Of a stretch of 64,000 nt of DNA, positions 33,307 to 57,363 are shown one piece after another. The notes below the pieces were generated by a model. The model had not been told where the DNA came from. It did no database searches and was given only the letters and a program-made list of their open reading frames with translations. Within the stretch, counting starts at the first letter, position 1. Each line of letters opens with the position of its first letter. This DNA comes from Nitrospirota bacterium (GTDB taxonomy: Bacteria; Nitrospirota; Thermodesulfovibrionia; Thermodesulfovibrionales; UBA6898): NCBI GenBank assembly GCA_016235245.1, contig JACRLO010000006.1:124001-188000 (forward strand), read 5' to 3'. The translations under genes and the position numbers were made by a program.

Positions 33307-36300
33307 TCACTGCAACGTCCTCCACCAGAGCGTCTTAACCGGATTTTCTTGGACAGCGTTTGGAGTAAAGTTTCCATCGCCAAGCTGAATAAACTTACCA
33401 TCAAAGGAAAGAATCGACACGTGGTTATTCTCTATCGCGAGGCCACCCACAACAGGAGAGCCAATATCCTTAGACAGCGTCAGTACCGACTTCTTCCCAA
33501 TGTTCACTAAGTCATCAGTTGGCTTAAGAGACAACGCAAGAAACCTTCCGGTTGATACAGTCTTTACCAGATCAGGTTGACCGATATCGGTATAGCCCTT
33601 TGCAGTTCCTAAATATACGGTCCCGGAAGAGTCTACAAGAGGCTGAATCCATATCTTTTCCCCATCGTTTGTGGCAAAGCTCTTGTCGTCCAAGCTGGCC
33701 CAGAGGTTCGTAAGAGTTTTGTCGCTCTCAAATTGAAATGCAAACAGGTGATATTTTGTCGTTGCCTCATCCTGGAGACTCTCCCTGCCACCAGTGCCAA
33801 ATACAATTTTATGTCCGGAAATAGAAACCATTGATCCAATGGGTTCCTTCACGCCTGCCGCTAATGTTGACGTAGCTTCAGGCATTACAAGTGTGGTGAG
33901 ATTTGATGGAACATAAAAAGCCGGGCCATTACCCGCGGAACCATCTGCCGCAATACTCACCCCGTCGACCGCACGCAATATCCAAAGACGGCCCTGCATG
34001 TCACCGAAGAGAACATAATCATCCGTTCCATTGTTCCCATAATCCATCAGCGCTGGAATCGAAGGAGTGTAATTCACGTTTTCAGCATCTCCGGTATACA
34101 TGATTTTCGTCTCCCAAACCAAGTCCCCGGTGCGGAAATTAAGCCCGAAAACGCTAAGCCCCTGCACATTATGCGCTGCACCCAAGGGGTTAATATCCAC
34201 CGGCCGTAACCATGGGGCAGTTAGAATTATATTTGTATCGAGAGTAGTTCCAATCTGGACCCTACCAATCGCTACACCCTTTGAGTTACCCATATTGGGG
34301 TCAAAATGAAGCCCTATTGTCATTGCTTCCGCTGTAGTATAAGTGCTCGGGAAGCTACCCGTCGGATAGTAATTTCTCATAGGATTAGTCGAGCTTACAG
34401 GGTTAACCTTACTGCTGTAGGTCCTCTCCCAAAGCACAGACGGGGTATATGGGTCAGAGACATCGAGCGCAAAGACAATTCCTTCGCTAATCACGCCTGG
34501 TTGAGCAGTCGTTGCCGTAGCAACCAGAATAGTCCGCCACTGATTTGGCGTGCTAATATTATTATCATGATCCACAAAGAAATCACCAACGGCGGGTGAA
34601 CTATCAACGGAAACGGCATAAGAAAAGACCGGGCAGACACAGTGATTTGGATCCGTTGCGGGATCACAGCTAGTAATCGTCTCGCCAGGATTGCAGTCAG
34701 TAAAAGTCTGATTCTTTAAGGAAGTTAGAAGTGCTGATGGAATGTACGCCCAGATCTCTTTGCCGCTGCCCGTACTGTACGTCTTGGTAGTACTATTCCA
34801 AGCCCCGCCATAAAAAGCATGCAGCATTCCGTCATGCCCTCCCGCGAATATTATCTTATCCCTACTACCGGCTCCAGTAACAAGGTCGCTGCGGGTTAAG
34901 ACAGCCGGAGTGGAATGTTCGATTCCCCCAAGCCGCTTGCTTAATTCCTTATCTCCGGCGGGCAGGGTATCATCCGCATTTTTGCGGCCCCTTACTGAGT
35001 TAACCAGCGCCTTAACACCATTGAGCGTTTTTACAGCATCAGGATCAAGATAGTGCCAGAGCTTTGTCGCATCTGTCTGTACAGTGCCAATATTACCGAC
35101 CTCAAACCCCATTTTTGTCGTTGACCCAGGCAGCGTAGTGAAAATGTAGCGCGCTGCATTTGCATTTGTCGGATTTGCCGGATTCGCGCCACTGGCTCCG
35201 GCAGGGGGCATAACAGAATTTGCTCCCGCATCCCAAAGCTTAGTAGCAGGATTTGTTGTGACATCGATGGCATAAAGATGCCCCTTATACCCAGGAAATT
35301 CAAAGGTCGCCTTATACAGTATATTGTCTTTTTGAACTGCACCTGCCTTTACGTATTCATTCGGAACAATTTGCAATTGCAGTCCCAGAAGGGAATTCAG
35401 AATATATTTTGTGCCACATGTCGTGGAGCTATCCCAGTCGACATCGCAATTAGTCAAAAGCGGGCCGAATTGCATCCCAGTCGCCGTCGCAGAGCAGATG
35501 GCAACACCTCCCGTGTCGTATGTAATATTCTTTGTAGGGGTGCAAATCGACTGACTGGCTGTATTTGGCGAACAGACACTACAGCCTCCGGTCACGTCAT
35601 CCGTTACATCGACAACAGTTGTCAACTTCGGATCGGCGATCAGAGGCGGGCCAACTACACCTTTAGGAAACGTAACCCTAAGCTCTTTAATATTCAAATT
35701 AGCGCCAGGATCAGCAGTGCCACTGCCATAGGGTTGCAGACTGCCGATTTTGAGACCCATAAGTGTCTTTGTGGTGGGATTGTATGTGGTACCATCACTG
35801 CTGATATATACGCCGCATACCTGCGTTGTGATATTTTCAACAATATTGGTAAGGTCAATCTGAAGCTTCGGACAGGTGGAACCAACAACGCATGTACACG
35901 AGCCGGTCAAAGACGGATAATTAGGCGGATTCGGCGTATTTAAAACAGCCTCTATTGTTACGATATTGGGATTCGTTAGGTTAACCGCGCTAATATCCTT
36001 ATCAAATGTCAGATCCAATAATCTTTCACTCGGTGTAATCGTGGCAGCATTAGAACACTTCAGATATTTATGCCCGGCAATGTATGCAACATACCCTTGC
36101 GTAGCGCTGCCGTTGATCCTGCCACCAACAAAATAGTCGTATGCAGGTGGTGCAGCCTCTCGCGGACTTGAATAAGCAGTTGTGTCCTTGTCATGAATAA
36201 ATCTCGTAACCGTTGAATTCCACCCGTAATCAGGAGACGGCGTCAGAAGCGGTCGGAAGTTTTTGACATGTCCGCTTGCAGGCATATGCACCCAACCGGC

Positions 36301-37899
36301 ACATTGGTTGATAAAGTTAGTAGTACCTTCAACCGCTATTTTGGTCTGGTCACACGAGGATATATCATTACAGAGCCCGCCGTTTGTATCAAGCCTCGGT
36401 GGTGCGTATGTCTTGGCCGTCAGAAAACCTCCAGTTGTAACCGTGTTTCCAGCAGTTTTATTGCCATCATACTGATATGACCCTTCCATGCTTTCAAGTG
36501 ATGCGCACTCAAAAAGTGCAGCATTGCCTTTTTCGAGAAACCCCCTAATTTCACTCATAATTGTTGTTTGATCAGCAGGCGCTATTTTACAGCCTGTGCT
36601 ATACCCCGAGTAGTAGCATATATTAGGACTGGCAGGGCATTCTGTAGTGTTCACAACCCCGGTATTGCACGTCGGATTTACGCATTCCGCTATTGTTGCA
36701 GGGACAGAGCAATATTTTCTATGGCCAGTTGCATTAGTATCCGTACATGTCACTGTATCGGGAGTTCCAGAACTGCAAATCGGAGCCACACACGAATGCT
36801 GGTTTGGGGAATTACTTTTCTGGCATCTATTTGCACCTGTCGTGCAATAACTCGTACTAAAACTATACCCAGAGGGACAGCTCGCCGTATCACAGCTAGC
36901 TGCAACGGGTGCCTTGTAACAACTCGCTGGGCTTACGGGGCATAACGTAGTATTCATCGTGTATCCGGAAGGGCAGTTGCCGCTTGCTGAACATTTATCA
37001 CCACACCCGTCGTCTATGATCCAGTGCGGTGCCCATAGCAGCTGAAAGTTGTCCAGATCGCCCGCAATAACCTCTTCTTTTGTTATTGTGCTGAAAATAT
37101 CATAAACCCTCGAACCCAAACCGGAAGCCTTGAGATAGTCAAGCAGAATACTTGTAGCCCCTTCCCCAAGCACTGCCACTTTTGGGGGAGTACCTGTAAG
37201 CACTTTATCCACGGGGGCAGAAAAATCATAGTTAGCAACATGATACCTCATTGATGTATAGTAGCTTAGTGCAGCGTCAAATGACGCTTTTTTGGTTGAG
37301 TCCAAGGCATTATAATCATTAATGTCGATAACAAATGGGCCGCCCCTATAGTTTATCGGGGAGGTTGTCCCTGAGGTGGTAAGCGCAGAGCTGTGCTTAA
37401 TCTGTACTGCAGCATCAGTACCGCTCTTGCTGATGAAGAAATCGATCGCATGGCGCCCCTTAGTATTAGCCGTATCGGGAGCGGTAATGGTTCCTCCAGG
37501 GCCAACTTCCTTATCAGGATTAATTACCCAGTATGCGGGGACGCCAATCTTCAATAAATCATAGATAAAACCATATGCCTGAAAAGTTCCCTGATCGTTC
37601 AGGGCAGTATCGCATTCAGCATGGTACGTTGTAGTGCCTATTTTACCGTAAGCATAATCTTTGTACTCGGGGCATTTCGTAGTGTCGAGTGTAAAAGTGG
37701 CGGCATTTGAAAAACATTCCTTATTCGGCTGCCAGCAAGGGTCGAATGGTATGATAAACGACCCCTTTGGGAATGTTCTTGTGGCTGCGTCAGCAGTAGG
37801 CGCGAGTGCAAATAAGCAGGCAAAAATAAGCAGGCAAAATACCGCCGGTTTCACTAATGCTGTTTGCATCGTCGTCTTATTCACCTTCATCGTCTTCAT
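33307..37899 (-). CDS. pilY1: PilY1-type pilus tip adhesin with Cys-rich modules
   Basis: 1530 aa with a signal peptide (cleaved near TADAA). The C-terminal half (about 840-1480) is the PilY1 propeller: LSKRLGGIEHSTPAVL, IIFAGGHDGMLHAFYGG, ALDVSDPYTPSVLWE, and a Ca-loop-like DFFVDHDNNIST near 1106-1117. The N-terminal region lacks a vWA MIDAS. Residues 299-437 hold 18 Cys arranged in four modules of roughly C-x4/5-C-x9/10-C-x6/11-C (starting at Cys303, 336, 370 and 406) with recurring CPSGY and CY. More Cys pairs follow at about 510-830. PilY1 acts at the tip of type IV pili in surface sensing and adhesion. Two disulfide isomerase genes lie upstream in the same direction. Confidence 0.92.
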   Translation of the reverse strand: MKTMKVNKTTMQTALVKPAVFCLLIFACLFALAPTADAATRTFPKGSFIIPFDPCWQPNKECFSNAATFTLDTTKCPEYKDYAYGKIGTTTYHAECDTALNDQGTFQAYGFIYDLLKIGVPAYWVINPDKEVGPGGTITAPDTANTKGRHAIDFFISKSGTDAAVQIKHSSALTTSGTTSPINYRGGPFVIDINDYNALDSTKKASFDAALSYYTSMRYHVANYDFSAPVDKVLTGTPPKVAVLGEGATSILLDYLKASGLGSRVYDIFSTITKEEVIAGDLDNFQLLWAPHWIIDDGCGDKCSASGNCPSGYTMNTTLCPVSPASCYKAPVAASCDTASCPSGYSFSTSYCTTGANRCQKSNSPNQHSCVAPICSSGTPDTVTCTDTNATGHRKYCSVPATIAECVNPTCNTGVVNTTECPASPNICYYSGYSTGCKIAPADQTTIMSEIRGFLEKGNAALFECASLESMEGSYQYDGNKTAGNTVTTGGFLTAKTYAPPRLDTNGGLCNDISSCDQTKIAVEGTTNFINQCAGWVHMPASGHVKNFRPLLTPSPDYGWNSTVTRFIHDKDTTAYSSPREAAPPAYDYFVGGRINGSATQGYVAYIAGHKYLKCSNAATITPSERLLDLTFDKDISAVNLTNPNIVTIEAVLNTPNPPNYPSLTGSCTCVVGSTCPKLQIDLTNIVENITTQVCGVYISSDGTTYNPTTKTLMGLKIGSLQPYGSGTADPGANLNIKELRVTFPKGVVGPPLIADPKLTTVVDVTDDVTGGCSVCSPNTASQSICTPTKNITYDTGGVAICSATATGMQFGPLLTNCDVDWDSSTTCGTKYILNSLLGLQLQIVPNEYVKAGAVQKDNILYKATFEFPGYKGHLYAIDVTTNPATKLWDAGANSVMPPAGASGANPANPTNANAARYIFTTLPGSTTKMGFEVGNIGTVQTDATKLWHYLDPDAVKTLNGVKALVNSVRGRKNADDTLPAGDKELSKRLGGIEHSTPAVLTRSDLVTGAGSRDKIIFAGGHDGMLHAFYGGAWNSTTKTYSTGSGKEIWAYIPSALLTSLKNQTFTDCNPGETITSCDPATDPNHCVCPVFSYAVSVDSSPAVGDFFVDHDNNISTPNQWRTILVATATTAQPGVISEGIVFALDVSDPYTPSVLWERTYSSKVNPVSSTNPMRNYYPTGSFPSTYTTAEAMTIGLHFDPNMGNSKGVAIGRVQIGTTLDTNIILTAPWLRPVDINPLGAAHNVQGLSVFGLNFRTGDLVWETKIMYTGDAENVNYTPSIPALMDYGNNGTDDYVLFGDMQGRLWILRAVDGVSIAADGSAGNGPAFYVPSNLTTLVMPEATSTLAAGVKEPIGSMVSISGHKIVFGTGGRESLQDEATTKYHLFAFQFESDKTLTNLWASLDDKSFATNDGEKIWIQPLVDSSGTVYLGTAKGYTDIGQPDLVKTVSTGRFLALSLKPTDDLVNIGKKSVLTLSKDIGSPVVGGLAIENNHVSILSFDGKFIQLGDGNFTPNAVQENPVKTLWWRTLQ

Positions 37900-37969
37900 T
37901 TTCTTTCTCCTTCCATTATGACCGCGTTATTCTGAAATATTACTTGCTTGCTACGTAACCCTGTATCTA

Positions 37970-38557
37970 TTAAAGCGTCTGTCGAATAGTCCCAGGGGCA
38001 GATACGCTTCCAGAGGATTTTCCGGTTTTTTGAACGCCAGCACCAAGTTGAGCATAGGGACTGCCAGCGCCAGTATATAACAGCATCGCCTCAATCGTTG
38101 AGGTGGTTCCCGTAGAGCCGTCAGTGCCGGTGGCAACAGCAATAATAATTTGATCTCTATCATTCGTAAAATCATTGTCACCGTCATCATTGTCTTTAAG
38201 AAAGACAGTGTATCCCGCCGCGGCAAGATCATTCATTAAGTCACTTGAGGGTGTCGGCAGTATGCCGGTCCTATCTTTATATGCCGAATCATTTGTATCA
38301 AGAAGGTTACCCAACTGGCCACACCAGTTTGGCGGTATGCAGTTGTTCTGCCAGAGCTGATCCCTCATCTTCTCAACGCCAGCAGTCGCCACATAGTAGC
38401 CCTGAGTTTTTTCCCGGGCTGTGGCAAGCGCCTTGAAATAGGAAGCCATGGTGTAAATTAGAGCACTTGCTACAACCAGCAAAATAAGCGAGAAAAGCAT
38501 CGCCACTACAAGGGCAATACCCTTTTGATTTCTTATAACTAATCCGCTATTTTTCAA
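37970..38557 (-). CDS. pilX: PilX-type minor pilin
   Basis: 195 aa. The leader MKNSGLVIRNQKG is followed by IALVVAMLFSLILLVVASAL, a membrane helix with Val rather than Glu at +5, as is usual for PilX/GspK-like proteins. A Cys pair (NNCIPPNWCG) lies in the globular part, which also has a DNDDGDNDFTNDRD acidic loop that could bind calcium. It overlaps pilW by 11 nt. Confidence 0.82.
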   Translation of the reverse strand: MKNSGLVIRNQKGIALVVAMLFSLILLVVASALIYTMASYFKALATAREKTQGYYVATAGVEKMRDQLWQNNCIPPNWCGQLGNLLDTNDSAYKDRTGILPTPSSDLMNDLAAAGYTVFLKDNDDGDNDFTNDRDQIIIAVATGTDGSTGTTSTIEAMLLYTGAGSPYAQLGAGVQKTGKSSGSVSAPGTIRQTL

Positions 38558-39569
38558 GGTTCTTTACCTCCACCCGTTTTGAGAGCAGCATTCGCCTGAA
38601 TTGATCGTTAAACGCAGGTAGGGTAATGCCGGGTATCACGGTACCATCAGGGTTAGTCGCACCGCCCACCTTATAGATACTGCTGTTAGTATAGTCTTTT
38701 TCCGGAAAGTCAGAACGCACCAATATCCAGATATTGATCGCCTTAACATTCGTAATATCCGTTGCCGCAATTGTGTCCCTGATATTCCCGTCATTCATAA
38801 AATATTCGAACTGCAGGGCATCAACCCCACCCCAAGATGTGCCACCGGTCCTGTCATGGGCTTCGAGCAGCGATAGAGGCTCTTCACTGCAGTCAGACTG
38901 CCATCGCACAATGCGCAGATCACGGCCATTTACATCAAACCTCTTCCGCATGACAACATATACATTGCTTCCGTTATTTAAAGTCTGATCAAGCGATGGG
39001 CTGATCGCTAGTGACGTTCCACCGAAGGAAGTGACCTGATATGCCCTGTTCAGGATCGTCGGTGCAAGCGTATCAAAAGTGACAAAGGCTCTCGCATTCT
39101 GCGTTGCGTTTCCTCCCAGGCTCAGGCCGCTGACATTCGCATACGTGGCATTTACAGATATTGAAGCTGCTCCCGAAGCTGCGGCAGCATTCATGACTAG
39201 AAAGGGGATTGCAGCATTATCTGTTTTATTCACCACCTGTTCTGATGTCAGAAATAAAAGGCTATCGTATGGATTTCCATTTGTATGCGCAAGAGAATTT
39301 GTGGCTGTGCCTTCTCCGCATAGAGTCACATTTGGGGTAGCGCCGACAAACAAACCTGCAAGCCTTAACTCCTCTGCCATATAATTCAGTATTCTCTGGC
39401 CTTTCTGCGTCAGCTCCTGATTTGTCTGCACATCAGCCATACGCTGACCGAGAAAAGTAAATGTTGGATAGGCTACGCCCAAAAATATCAGAAAGATCGT
39501 TACCGCAATCATCAACTCAACAAGCGTTGTTCCTGTCCTATTTTTTAAGATATTGAGATGTTTTTCCAT
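38547..39569 (-). CDS. pilW: PilW-type minor pilin
   Basis: 340 aa. Leader MEKHLNILKNRTG, then TTLVELMIAVTIFLIFLGVA with Glu at +5. The helix and the ILNYMAEELRLAGLF segment are typical of PilW. It starts 2 nt after the pilV stop and overlaps pilX. It belongs to the minor-pilin complex that primes assembly and presents PilY1. Confidence 0.88.
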   Translation of the reverse strand: MEKHLNILKNRTGTTLVELMIAVTIFLIFLGVAYPTFTFLGQRMADVQTNQELTQKGQRILNYMAEELRLAGLFVGATPNVTLCGEGTATNSLAHTNGNPYDSLLFLTSEQVVNKTDNAAIPFLVMNAAAASGAASISVNATYANVSGLSLGGNATQNARAFVTFDTLAPTILNRAYQVTSFGGTSLAISPSLDQTLNNGSNVYVVMRKRFDVNGRDLRIVRWQSDCSEEPLSLLEAHDRTGGTSWGGVDALQFEYFMNDGNIRDTIAATDITNVKAINIWILVRSDFPEKDYTNSSIYKVGGATNPDGTVIPGITLPAFNDQFRRMLLSKRVEVKNLEK

Positions 39570-39571
39570 GG

Positions 39572-40012
39572 CTACAAACTCTTTTCCGTTACAAGTCTAA
39601 AAGTCTTCGTTTCTCCCTGGTATGTGTAAGTCGATGTAACCGTCAGTTTGCAAAGACCTGAAGCCGCATTCACTATAAGTGCGTTGGAAGTTCTCCTGAT
39701 TTCAAAAGGAGCTCCCGTAGTTGCAGCGCTCACCACATCAGTTTCAGCATTGACAAAGTTAACGCAGGTATTTCCTGGAGCAGCACCACAAGTCCAAGCT
39801 GCCCCATTGCAAGTCATAGAAGTCCCTGCGGCTAGAAGTTCGTCCATTTTATAAGCTGTCACAGCTTGAGATTTTGTTGTCAACAACGCCGTCTTGTCCG
39901 TGCTGACGGCAGTTGTAATGAGCGGTAGCAATGCAAAAAATGAGAGAGAGAGCACTGTGACCGCAATTAGCACCTCTATGAGCGTAAATCCTTTTTTGCG
40001 TCTGTTTTTCAT
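39572..40012 (-). CDS. pilV: PilV-type minor pilin
   Basis: 146 aa from the ATG at 40012, with GGAG 8-9 nt upstream. A longer in-frame start at 40066 would run across the sigma-54 promoter. MKNRRKKG is followed by FTLIEVLIAVTVLSLSFFAL, a perfect type IV prepilin site. Four Cys are present in the short globular part (TCNGAAWTCG, NTCVNF, GLCKL). It is the first gene of the operon pilV-pilW-pilX-pilY1-fimT-lipoprotein. Confidence 0.9.
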   Translation of the reverse strand: MKNRRKKGFTLIEVLIAVTVLSLSFFALLPLITTAVSTDKTALLTTKSQAVTAYKMDELLAAGTSMTCNGAAWTCGAAPGNTCVNFVNAETDVVSAATTGAPFEIRRTSNALIVNAASGLCKLTVTSTYTYQGETKTFRLVTEKSL

Positions 40013-40048
40013 TGATATATCTCCAAGCAAGATTTTCACTAGCTTACA

Positions 40049-40066
40049 ATGCAAAAAGGAGGCCAA
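40049..40066 (-). promoter_or_regulatory. Sigma-54 promoter of the minor-pilin operon
   Basis: Minus strand TTGGCCTCCTTTTTGCATT: the GG and GC dinucleotides are exactly 10 nt apart, with TTGC at -12. The predicted start near 40039 leaves a leader of about 27 nt with GGAG before the pilV ATG. PilR-type activators commonly drive pilus genes from such promoters. Confidence 0.65.
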
Positions 40067-40343: not shown

Positions 40344-40954
40344 CACTTTGCTTCTGAAGACAAATCTATGATCGCCCGTTCCTCTTCGTTCAGCTTCGCT
40401 GCCTCATCATTAAAACCTTTTATCCTTGCATCAAGGTCTGCCATACGACCCCTTATTTCATCAAGCTGCGACTGTCTTCTGATCAAACCCAGGTTCTTTA
40501 CGTCCTCATTGAGTTGCTCCCGCTCTTTGTCAAGCCTTTCCCGTTCAGGTTTCAGAGCAGCCTTTTTTTCATTTATCTGGTCGAGCCGTGATATTTGATC
40601 CGGCGTCAGGCCGGTAACGACCTTCCCCTCGCTCCCCTTTACCACAGGCTTATCAGAAGGCAGAGGCTTTTCGTTTTCCGGCAGCTTGCCAGAGCCGGCC
40701 GGTTTGGGTTCATCGCTGACTTCCGCAGGCGTCTGCCTGAGCACCTTCGTATCCTGCATGCTGACAATCTCCTGCCGGTCAATCTCAAAAGTGCCTCCCT
40801 CAAGATCGCACAGGAGCTTCCCCTTCATATCCCGGCACGACTCGGCAGTAATGGTCCTGCCATTTTTCAGCGTTATCTTCACCCCGGCAAAAGACAGCCC
40901 GGCCATACATGCAATAAGTGCAGTCGCCAGGAAGACGACTATTGCCTTTTTCAT
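40343..40954 (-). CDS. Exported coiled-coil protein of unknown function
   Basis: 203 aa with a signal peptide (cleaved after LSFA). A short beta domain (VKITLKNGRTITAESC, then GTFEIDRQEIVSM) carries two Cys. A Pro/Lys-rich linker follows, then a long coiled coil (about 115-195) rich in Glu, Lys, Leu and Arg. Its ATG overlaps the stop of the upstream DsbC-like gene (ATGA), so the two are made together. Its position between the isomerases and the minor-pilin operon suggests a periplasmic role in pilus or disulfide handling; this is inference. Confidence 0.75.
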   Translation of the reverse strand: MKKAIVVFLATALIACMAGLSFAGVKITLKNGRTITAESCRDMKGKLLCDLEGGTFEIDRQEIVSMQDTKVLRQTPAEVSDEPKPAGSGKLPENEKPLPSDKPVVKGSEGKVVTGLTPDQISRLDQINEKKAALKPERERLDKEREQLNEDVKNLGLIRRQSQLDEIRGRMADLDARIKGFNDEAAKLNEEERAIIDLSSEAK

Positions 40955-41775
40955 TTCCCCTCTCCTTTTTTGGGAGGATTGGTCACAAGTTCTATGATCG
41001 CCCTGGCATCCTTGCCACCGACAACCACCATGCCATCCGGCAAAATGAGGGTCGGTGTTCCGGTGATGCCGAGTTCAGCGGCAAGCTTGATATTTGCCTC
41101 GACCTCCTGCTTATTGTCACAGTCTGGCTTCGGTATCTCTTTTTTCGCAAAATTATCCTCAAGCAACTGGACCGAACTCTTGCAGAGAATGCTCTGGGAT
41201 TTCCAGAACGCGTCCGGATGCATCGGAAGAGGCATGAGCTTGAGATAAAAAGCGATATCTTTTCTCTCTGCAGCAACCTTTTTTATCTCCTCATGGACCC
41301 TTGCGCAGTAGGGACAGTCCGGATCAGTAAAAACGATCACCTTGTATTTCGCATCCTTCTCTCCAATGATCAGAGACTTATCAAGTGGGATCTTCGAAAC
41401 GTCGACATATTTGACCAGATCACGGTTGACCTTCTCAAAGGTCTCCTGCGTCTTGTTCAGTCCGGTATCGACTTCAAAGATCGGGCCGGCAATCACATGC
41501 CGCTTCGAAAAACCGATATACATGACGCCCCTGGTACCCTTGTCCTCAATAATGACCTCCCAGAGCCCTTTTATCGGGCTGAGCCTGATCTCAACGGGCT
41601 TTGCCTCGGCAGCGCCGAGCTTTGTAAGTATCTGCTGTGCATCCTGCGTGCTCATGGCGTGGCACTTCATGCAGTCTTCCTCACACCCGCCGAAAGCAGA
41701 GGCCTTCATTGACTGCATACCCTGCAGGGCATAAAACATTACGACAAATAAGCCTATCATCAGGAATTTTTTCAT
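40951..41775 (-). CDS. DsbC-like disulfide isomerase with CxxCH motif
   Basis: 274 aa with a signal peptide. The mature N terminus contains CEEDCMKCHAMS, i.e. a CxxCH heme-attachment motif, before a DsbC-type dimerisation region (IKGLWEVIIEDKGTRGVMYI). The thioredoxin domain has the active site FTDPDCPYCARVHEE and the cis-Pro loop GITGTPTLILPDG. It is expected to reshuffle disulfides in the periplasm; a bound heme could couple it to electron flow. AAGGAGA lies upstream of the ATG. It is a close paralog of the Sec-containing protein at 41985-42752. Confidence 0.9.
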   Translation of the reverse strand: MKKFLMIGLFVVMFYALQGMQSMKASAFGGCEEDCMKCHAMSTQDAQQILTKLGAAEAKPVEIRLSPIKGLWEVIIEDKGTRGVMYIGFSKRHVIAGPIFEVDTGLNKTQETFEKVNRDLVKYVDVSKIPLDKSLIIGEKDAKYKVIVFTDPDCPYCARVHEEIKKVAAERKDIAFYLKLMPLPMHPDAFWKSQSILCKSSVQLLEDNFAKKEIPKPDCDNKQEVEANIKLAAELGITGTPTLILPDGMVVVGGKDARAIIELVTNPPKKGEGK

Positions 41776-41984: not shown

Positions 41985-42752
41985 CTACTTCTTGTCGACC
42001 TGTTTAATGATCTCGGCAGAGTCAATGGCCCCCGGGATGAGCGTCCCGTTGGGGAAGATTACCGCAGGCGTGCCGCTTATGCCGAGCGTCTCTGCGAGCT
42101 TGATATTCTGATCGATCACCGTGGTCGCACAGCTTGGCGCAGGCAGAGGCTTCTTATCAAATGCAGCCTCAAGGAGCTCCAGCGACTGCTCGCAGATGAT
42201 CGCCTTTGATTTGCCATATGCCTCTTTATGCATCGGCAGGGGGAAGAGGATGTTATAGAAGGCTATATCCTTCCTCTCCTTTATGACCTTCTTCATCTCC
42301 TGATGAAGTTTTCCGCAGTATGGTCAATCGGGGTCGGAAAATACAATGACTTTGTTCTTGGCAGTCTTGTCACCAAGAACAAGAGCATCTTTGAGCGGGA
42401 TCTTTGATACATCAACCTTGTTGATCTTCTGGAAGCTTTCCTGGGTCAGGTTGGTCTTGGTCTTGATGTTAACGACATTGCCGGATACTAAATGCTTTTT
42501 GGCATGATCGATATAGAGTACAGCTTTTTTGCCATTGGTCTCTACGCCGACCTCCCAGAGTCCCGTAACCGGGGCTGGCTGAACATAGAGCACTTTCACA
42601 TTTGGACTGAGCTCGCTCAAAATGGTCTTTGCCTCTTCAGCACTAAGGGTATCTCCCTTTGCGGCCATACATGCCTGGGGCCCCAGAGAGAGGACAGATA
42701 AAAGGACAAATGTCATAAACCAAATCTTGCGCATGGGGAGACTATACCACAT
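41985..42752 (-). CDS. Probable selenoprotein: DsbC-like isomerase with UPYC active site
   Basis: Read through a TGA at 42326-42324, the frame gives 255 aa. A signal peptide leads to a DsbC-like dimerisation region (PVTGLWEVGVETNGKKAVLY), then VIVFSDPD-[TGA]-PYCGKLHQEM and the cis-Pro loop GISGTPAVIFPNG. In the paralog at 40951-41775 the same place reads VFTDPDCPYC, so TGA replaces exactly the first, nucleophilic Cys of CxxC. A perfect 7-bp hairpin with an AGGA loop begins 15 nt after the TGA and is absent from the paralog. Both halves are conserved around the codon, which argues against a plain pseudogene. The start may be the ATG at 42752 or 42734. The alternative is a TGC-to-TGA mutation or sequencing error. 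Confidence 0.8.
42291..42308 (-). promoter_or_regulatory. SECIS-like hairpin
   Basis: Minus strand CTTCATC-AGGA-GATGAAG: a perfect 7-bp stem with a tetraloop whose second base is G. The loop starts 22 nt after the TGA codon. Bacterial SECIS elements need a stem-loop close downstream of UGA with a G early in the loop, so the geometry fits. Confidence 0.65.
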
Positions 42753-55893: not shown

Positions 55894-57363
55894 ATGAAGA
55901 ATAAAATCGGGATTATAGTTCTTTTCCTGCTCATCGGCATTCTTATCGGCGGAGTTTCGTTCTATTTCCTTGAGAAAGTCACGGGGACACATAAAGGATA
56001 CGCGTCCTTTACCGCGCCAAATGTGCCGCGTCAGATCATCGACACAAGCAAGGCATTTTCAGAGATTGCAGGTTCTGTCTCGCCCTCTGTTGTAAACATA
56101 TCAACAACAAAGGTTATGAAGAGAGATTCAGGGTCCTCTCCTGAAGATCCGTTTTTTGACCTTTTAAACCCGTTTCGCAATTTCAAGATGCCCAAAAAGT
56201 GGAAAGAGCAGAGCCTGGGCTCAGGGGTAATTGTCAGCACAGACGGCTATATCATTACGAATAACCATGTCGTTGAACAGGCTGACGAGATCAGGGTAAC
56301 GCTCTTTGACAAGCGTTCCTTCAAGGCAAAGATTATCGGTGCAGACACCAAGACAGATATCGCTATTGTGAAGATCGAGGCAGACAATCTCAGGGCTGCG
56401 CAGTGGGGAGATTCTGACAAGCTGCAGGTCGGTGAGTTTGTGCTTGCGATCGGCAATCCCTATGGTCTGAGCCATACGGTTACCATGGGCATTATTAGCG
56501 CTGTGGGAAGGGCCAATGTCGGGATAGCAGATTATGAGGACTTTATCCAGACCGATGCGGCAATCAACCCCGGAAATTCAGGCGGCCCGCTTGTCAATAT
56601 CAAGGGAGAACTTATCGGCGTCAATACGGCGATTTTTTCGAGGTCCGGCGGATACCAGGGCATCGGGTTTGCGGTGCCGAGCAACATGACCCGTCTTGTG
56701 ATGAACCAGCTTGTTGATAAAGGAAAGGTAACGCGGGGTTGGCTCGGCGTAACAATCCAGGAACTGACGCCTGAACTATCGCAGAAGTTCGGGCTGAAGA
56801 GCGAGAAGGGTGCACTGGTAGGAGATATTGCCAAGGGAAGTCCTGCCGAAAAATCGGGCATCAAGAGGGGCGACATCATCCTTGAATATAACGGCAAGAA
56901 GATTTCTGATGTGGGGAACCTCAGGAACATGGTCGCCCAGAGCAAGGTCGGCAGCGAAATACCGATAACTATTCTGAGGGGCGGCAAGGAATATGCGGTA
57001 AAGGTTCTGATCGTAGAACTGCCAAAGGATATGGCAGAGGCAACTCCCGGCAACACACCTGAGGATGCGACCTTTGAAGGCCTCTCAGGACTGTCCGCCA
57101 TGGAACTCTCCCGGGAGATTGCCCGGCAGCTTGGCCTTCACAAGGATGAGAAAGGTGTTGTCGTTGTTCGGGTCGAAGCAGGAAGCCCTGCTGAGGAGGC
57201 CGGCATACGCAAAGGAGATGTCATCCAGGAAATTGACAGAAAGCGGATTGAAGGGCTCAACGACTACAATAAGGCCGTCTCAGGGATGAAGCCGGGAGAC
57301 GCGGCACTCCTTTTCGTCAACAGGGGCGGGAAGAAGTTTTACGTTACGATCAAGCCCTCTTGA
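55894..57363 (+). CDS. htrA: Periplasmic serine protease HtrA/DegP
   Basis: 489 aa. The N-terminal helix (about 5-27) is a signal anchor or signal peptide. The protease domain has catalytic His in ITNNHVVEQ, Asp in TKTDIAIVK and Ser in NPGNSGGPLV. Two PDZ domains follow (GWLGVTIQELTPEL and the second near residues 395-489 with AGSPAEEAGIRKGDVIQE). It degrades or refolds misfolded envelope proteins. It is followed by ispD after 30 nt. Confidence 0.95.
   Translation: MKNKIGIIVLFLLIGILIGGVSFYFLEKVTGTHKGYASFTAPNVPRQIIDTSKAFSEIAGSVSPSVVNISTTKVMKRDSGSSPEDPFFDLLNPFRNFKMPKKWKEQSLGSGVIVSTDGYIITNNHVVEQADEIRVTLFDKRSFKAKIIGADTKTDIAIVKIEADNLRAAQWGDSDKLQVGEFVLAIGNPYGLSHTVTMGIISAVGRANVGIADYEDFIQTDAAINPGNSGGPLVNIKGELIGVNTAIFSRSGGYQGIGFAVPSNMTRLVMNQLVDKGKVTRGWLGVTIQELTPELSQKFGLKSEKGALVGDIAKGSPAEKSGIKRGDIILEYNGKKISDVGNLRNMVAQSKVGSEIPITILRGGKEYAVKVLIVELPKDMAEATPGNTPEDATFEGLSGLSAMELSREIARQLGLHKDEKGVVVVRVEAGSPAEEAGIRKGDVIQEIDRKRIEGLNDYNKAVSGMKPGDAALLFVNRGGKKFYVTIKPS

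Follow-up and report, generated by a model that had tools for sequence, protein, structure and literature searches.

The window, by which we mean the whole stretch of 64,000 nucleotides of a Nitrospirota genome that was analysed, carries on its reverse strand two neighbouring genes for DsbC-type proteins (Table 1). One of them has the active-site segment DPDCPYC, whereas in the other the first cysteine of this segment is replaced by an in-frame TGA, giving DPD-U-PYC when the codon is read as selenocysteine (Sec). The longest reading of the latter gene begins with the ATG of 42752, the first one in frame, and comprises 255 amino acids; the TGA at 42326-42324 is the sole stop codon within 42752-41985. 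A preliminary description of this DNA had placed the gene at 41985-42752, with an intact and conserved frame around a TGA that takes the place of the first Cys of the paralog's CPYC. The frame and the replacement were both confirmed, the latter being directly visible in the two sequences (DPD*PYC versus DPDCPYC), but the start had to be revised, the second ATG at 42734 being the more likely one according to the alignment with the starts of relatives. The same description had anticipated that gene callers would split the gene, and indeed a mechanical ORF caller shows two short ORFs in the window. Residue numbers 142 and 143 of the Sec protein are counted here from the first in-frame ATG (42752). 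When the whole window was scanned for TGA codons with coding-like flanks on both sides, the TGA at 42326 ranked first (tied). A second TGA of this kind, at 57361 on the forward strand, was discarded, as it looks like the ordinary end of a gene, with a further gene lying behind it in the same frame.

Table 1. Features of the Sec gene, its Cys paralog and selD (positions in the window unless a contig is named).
Feature	Position	Strand	Remarks
Predicted Sec-containing DsbC-type disulfide isomerase	41985..42734	-	249 aa when read through; reading frame uninterrupted except for one TGA
Predicted UGA codon for Sec	42324..42326	-	Residue 143 (from first ATG); counterpart, by alignment, of the first CGYC cysteine in E. 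coli DsbC (1eej)
Putative resolving Cys, C146 of the UPYC active site	42315..42317	-	Invariant in 33 aligned sequences
Predicted SECIS apical hairpin	42291..42308	-	Stem of 7 bp (CUUCAUC/GAUGAAG), loop AGGA; begins 15 nt past the TGA
Possible lower SECIS stem, UGACC with GGUCA	42284..42326	-	Predicted in the RNA of the window; 79% of cells paired
Cys187	42192..42194	-	Invariant in alignment; aligned with a DsbC cysteine (1eej)
Cys208	42129..42131	-	Invariant in alignment; aligned with a DsbC cysteine (1eej)
Cys paralog (DPDCPYC)	40951..41775	-	274 aa; immediately downstream of the Sec gene
CxxCH (CMKCH) c-type haem motif of the paralog	41659..41673	-	Sec form of the window without the motif
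selD, predicted selenoprotein gene	contig C35, L016:1495-2538	+	In-frame TGA

The protein obtained by reading through the TGA has an N-terminus resembling a signal peptide, followed by DsbC_N and thioredoxin domains, which are recognised by Pfam as PF10411 (E 1.5e-12) and PF13098 (Thioredoxin_2, E 1.1e-18), respectively. DsbC structures headed the results of a sequence search of solved structures, and the AlphaFold model of the monomer, with a mean pLDDT of 92, aligns with DsbC/DsbG over both domains, pointing to a fold of the DsbC/DsbG type. Superposition of E. coli DsbC (1eej) on the model gave a Z of 18.0 over 203 residues with an rmsd of 7.1, a value due to a different angle between the two domains or to their flexibility, and UPYC aligned with CGYC of 1eej. 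The two proteins share the DsbC_N and thioredoxin domains, the position of the catalytic motif and a conserved, presumably structural, pair of cysteines. They differ in the replacement of the first Cys by Sec and in the motif itself (UPYC versus CGYC), and are approximately 30% identical in the structural alignment. The cysteines of DsbC aligned with Cys187 and Cys208 form its structural disulfide, and by analogy these two residues probably form the same bond in the Sec protein. The score against the NCBIfam equivalog model for DsbC (NF008129) was 80.6 bits, under the curated cut-off of 215; the protein is a DsbC-type relative and not an equivalog as defined by this model. The segment PMHKEA contains a histidine, His175, that all 33 aligned members of the family share and that E. 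coli DsbC lacks at the corresponding position.

The perfect 7-bp hairpin with an AGGA loop that the preliminary description had noticed 15 nt after the TGA was found at 42308-42291 of the reverse strand, and its suggested suitability as a bacterial SECIS was well supported by the comparisons described below. Published rules for bacterial SECIS elements comprise a loop of 3-9 nt, a stem of 4-16 bp, a G within the first two loop positions, a distance of 16-37 nt from the UGA and an MFE of <= -7.5 kcal/mol (PMC13188914). The hairpin falls within all these bounds, with a 4-nt loop, 7 bp, a distance of 22 nt from UGA to loop and a folding energy of -11.3 kcal/mol for the 50 nt that start at the TGA (z = -2.3 against dinucleotide shuffles). 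It resembles the bSECIS model of that study in having a small apical loop with a G, carried by a stem at 16-37 nt past the UGA, and shows no difference in kind from it; the stem is here almost sequence-invariant across the order.

The Cys homologues provide an internal control, as they represent the same protein without the hairpin. The complete 7-bp stem is present in all 84 distinct TGA sequences and in only 4 of the 92 Cys homologues. A similar bias affects the Leu codon CTT (84/84 TGA sequences versus 22/92 Cys) and the Lys codon AAG (84/84 versus 34/92), and position 2 of the loop is a G in each of the 84 TGA sequences, whereas the rest of the loop varies freely. Moreover, a compensatory change from U-A to C-G (CAT..ATG to CAC..GTG) was detected in 3 of 40 aligned sequences, and none of 500 shuffles gave as many double-change cells; this covariation involves one pair because most pairs of the stem are invariant. 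Altogether, the comparison of TGA and Cys sequences indicates that the hairpin is a SECIS. The possible lower stem listed in Table 1 was set aside as evidence, its conservation being only partial.

Relatives of the Sec protein (E <= 1e-20) were found in 146 of the 176 genomes of the same order, and at least one relative with a single internal TGA is present in 70 of the listed genomes of the order, as counted by hand. All eight genomes of the genus carry the TGA form, and the protein is up to 76% identical to its TGA-bearing relatives. In the 81 TGA-bearing loci taken from the order, the TGA is invariably located at the identical codon. Random stops elsewhere in the homologues, which had been named beforehand as contrary evidence, were looked for and none appeared in the conserved body of these 81 loci; three of them show a TAA or TAG at least 146 codons upstream, outside the protein. 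Inspection of the Sec site in homologues, also proposed beforehand, revealed TGA in 84 sequences, TGC in 58 and TGT in 34, and nothing else. These figures refer to a pooled set of distinct sequences comprising the loci of the order and those of named genomes, mostly Nitrospirae MAGs and some deltaproteobacterial ones, including one Syntrophaceae TGA form. A chance origin of the TGA and the hairpin is excluded because of this identity of codon across all loci together with the distribution of the stem between TGA and Cys sequences. On the branch of the window itself, dN/dS past the TGA was approximately 0.21 (12 synonymous and 9 non-synonymous changes), which is the pattern predicted by translation beyond the UGA and indicates that the codons following it are under purifying selection. 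A quick tree built from 156 sequences implies at least 22 changes between the Sec and Cys states at this site, 11 of them forced by supported branches.

The search for selA, selB, selC and selD that had been suggested had a favourable outcome, with one qualification. The genome possesses a tRNA-Sec with a UCA anticodon, identical over 94 nt to the copy of the sister species (genome G167), and a SelD that scores above the curated cut-off and has an in-frame TGA of its own in the active site (SSCAGUAAKF). On the other hand, the draft, which consists of 41 contigs and is 96% complete, yielded neither selA nor selB; the best selB match, at C24:38801, comes directly after two matches resembling tRNAs and probably represents EF-Tu. 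A selA gene is present in all 7 congeners, in 153 of the 176 genomes of the order and, by hand count, in 67 of the 70 listed genomes with the TGA form. In G166, one of the congeners, selB adjoins selA, and with both genes in one neighbourhood a single missing locus would explain the two absences. The selAB segment of both near relatives adjoins a block that is found inside contig C25 here, and in G167 it is also near the tRNA-Sec block, which here lies inside contig C7. Synteny is thus interrupted within contigs C7 and C25, suggesting that selAB is missing or has moved rather than having merely been cut at a contig end; contig ends as the cause of the absence are not supported, the flanking blocks being internal. 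Considering the tRNA-Sec, SelD, the selA of the congeners and the purifying selection past the TGA, we believe that it is the assembly, and not the cell, that lacks selAB, which leaves little room for a recent loss. The genome also contains a 94-nt tRNA-Cys with a GCA anticodon (contig C1, 168864-168953; L002:1501-1594), with a long variable arm and an acceptor stem of 8 bp, whose score exceeds the tRNA-Sec cut-off and which matches the description of the selC*-type tRNA-Cys reported from Nitrospirae (PMC7609411).

The pair formed by the Sec gene and its Cys paralog is kept in the two nearest relatives, and the two proteins of the window lie on separate branches of the quick tree of 156 sequences. 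The CxxCH motif seen in the paralog occurs in 124 of these 156 homologues, in Sec and Cys forms alike and often as CxxxCxxCH, between the signal peptide and the DsbC_N domain. To judge from the motif, it is possibly a site of covalent haem attachment, and to our knowledge such a site is not part of E. coli DsbC. The window also contains, at 33307-40066 of the reverse strand, a cluster of minor pilins of a type IV pilus, including a PilY1-like protein of 1530 aa that is rich in cysteine. The tie to a pilus adhesin locus drawn in the preliminary description proved weak, as only one close relative (G166) retains the whole cluster next to the DsbC pair and the more distant Sec forms have unrelated neighbour genes. 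Since PilY1/pilin genes adjoin only in the nearest relatives and are unconserved beyond them, a role as a dedicated pilus-assembly enzyme was rejected as a general explanation.

In the light of these results, what looks like a stop almost certainly encodes selenocysteine, placed in the active site of an enzyme that is exported and shuffles disulfides, and software that splits or discards the gene errs. We are highly confident that the product is a thiol-disulfide isomerase of the DsbC type, periplasmic and with selenocysteine as the nucleophilic residue (UPYC). Comparison among genomes and structures shows the conserved UGA and hairpin, the tRNA-Sec, SelD, the downstream selection and the predicted DsbC fold with its residues; the actual insertion of Sec and the existence of selA and selB in the living organism are inferred. 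According to the mechanism proposed here, SelB bound to the hairpin CUUCAUC-AGGA-GAUGAAG would bring Sec-tRNA-Sec to the UGA at 42326-42324, and translation would proceed past this codon to 41985. By analogy with the DsbC family, the product would be exported and would dimerise via its N-terminal domain, acting as an isomerase rather than as an oxidase or reductase. Its selenol would attack wrong disulfides of secreted proteins, C146 would resolve the selenenyl-sulfide in the manner of the CGYC cysteines of E. coli DsbC, and the active site would be reduced by a partner of the DsbD/CcdA type. Without Sec, the product would stop after 142 residues, keeping the dimerisation domain and losing the active site.

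Other explanations of the in-frame UGA deserve consideration. If selA and selB had recently been lost, the UGA would now be a true stop and the gene a relic, while relatives would still make the selenoprotein. The draft without both genes and the rearranged syntenic site of selAB are compatible with such a loss, but it is difficult to reconcile with a tRNA-Sec identical to that of the sister species, purifying selection past the TGA on the window's branch, a SelD that retains its own in-frame TGA and a perfect hairpin. Besides, the adjacency of selA and selB in G166 allows one missing locus to account for both, and we regard a recent loss as improbable. Decoding of the UGA as Cys or another ordinary amino acid might be mediated by a tRNA such as the tRNA-Sec-like tRNA-Cys of this genome, and selC*-type tRNA-Cys with a UCA anticodon are found in some bacteria (PMC7609411). 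Nevertheless, the anticodon is here GCA and not UCA, a tRNA-Sec with UCA is present, and the codon is followed by a predicted bacterial SECIS. Furthermore, 13 of the window's 29 long ORFs end with UGA, which shows that the codon has not been generally reassigned. This decoding appears very improbable. Least credible of all is a sequencing error or an ordinary pseudogene, an explanation for which nothing speaks beyond the in-frame stop codon itself, and which is refuted by the presence of TGA at the same codon in 81 loci of the order whose conserved body is otherwise free of stops.

A different alternative accepts the selenoprotein and concerns its function, which might mainly be that of a periplasmic reductase or oxidase, or be specific for cytochrome c or pilus proteins, instead of that of a general isomerase. 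The divergence of UPYC from the CGYC of E. coli DsbC, the CxxCH of many homologues and the cysteine-rich PilY1-like protein nearby in the window are in line with this possibility. However, the combination of DsbC_N and thioredoxin domains suits dimeric isomerases, and the neighbourhoods vary between genomes, indicating no fixed client. We consider these other functions unlikely and favour the general isomerase with Sec in its active site.

Selenoproteins that combine a UxxC motif with a thioredoxin fold are well known as a class, and periplasmic disulfide isomerases are textbook Cys enzymes. Predicted families with a UxxC motif include a 'DsbG-like' selenoprotein (NF041057) from Symbiobacterium and the Sargasso Sea (PMC13188914, PMC1794560, PMC1088965), and a 'thiol:disulfide interchange protein' (PF13098, WP_011366075.1) from Geobacter and Syntrophus (PMC13188914, PMC1794560). 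With the former, the Sec protein of the window shares a Sec in the UxxC of a Dsb-class protein, and NF041057 was absent among its NCBIfam matches (E up to 0.001). With the WP_011366075.1 family it has in common UxxC, PF13098 and the nature of a thiol-disulfide selenoprotein. A pattern search for the site DP[DE]-UGA-P[YF]C gave no hit among 277 genomes belonging to the same class as G177, a deltaproteobacterial genome with a Geobacteraceae title, and the DPxUPYC site was found twice in 23 genomes of the class to which the Syntrophaceae locus belongs. Given this absence from the 277 genomes, the Geobacter protein WP_011366075.1 probably represents a different subfamily, identity of the two being the less probable alternative. 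A TGA reported in a DsbC relative of genome G186, from the order of G177, was discarded, since it lies upstream of the protein and the active site has Cys. The selenoprotein literature searched contained no mention of a DsbC-class selenoprotein of Nitrospirota.

The Sec DsbC protein is a lineage-wide addition to the known UxxC selenoprotein class. Beyond this, we tentatively raise the possibility, to which we give less than even chances, of an undescribed selenoprotein family, that is, a DsbC-class Sec isomerase representing the usual form within one Nitrospirota order, many members of which would bear haem and be wired to the periplasmic cytochrome pool. If true, the members with CxxCH beside the dimerisation domain would be selenium-and-haem disulfide isomerases. 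As the Sec gene is presented by a mechanical caller as two short ORFs, the selenoproteomes of uncultured Nitrospirota are probably under-counted. Finally, the near-invariant hairpin with its clean Cys controls offers a testable SECIS rule for the lineage, and the order-wide Sec form, with at least 11 supported swaps between Sec and Cys, constitutes a natural experiment on the worth of selenium in an exported enzyme.
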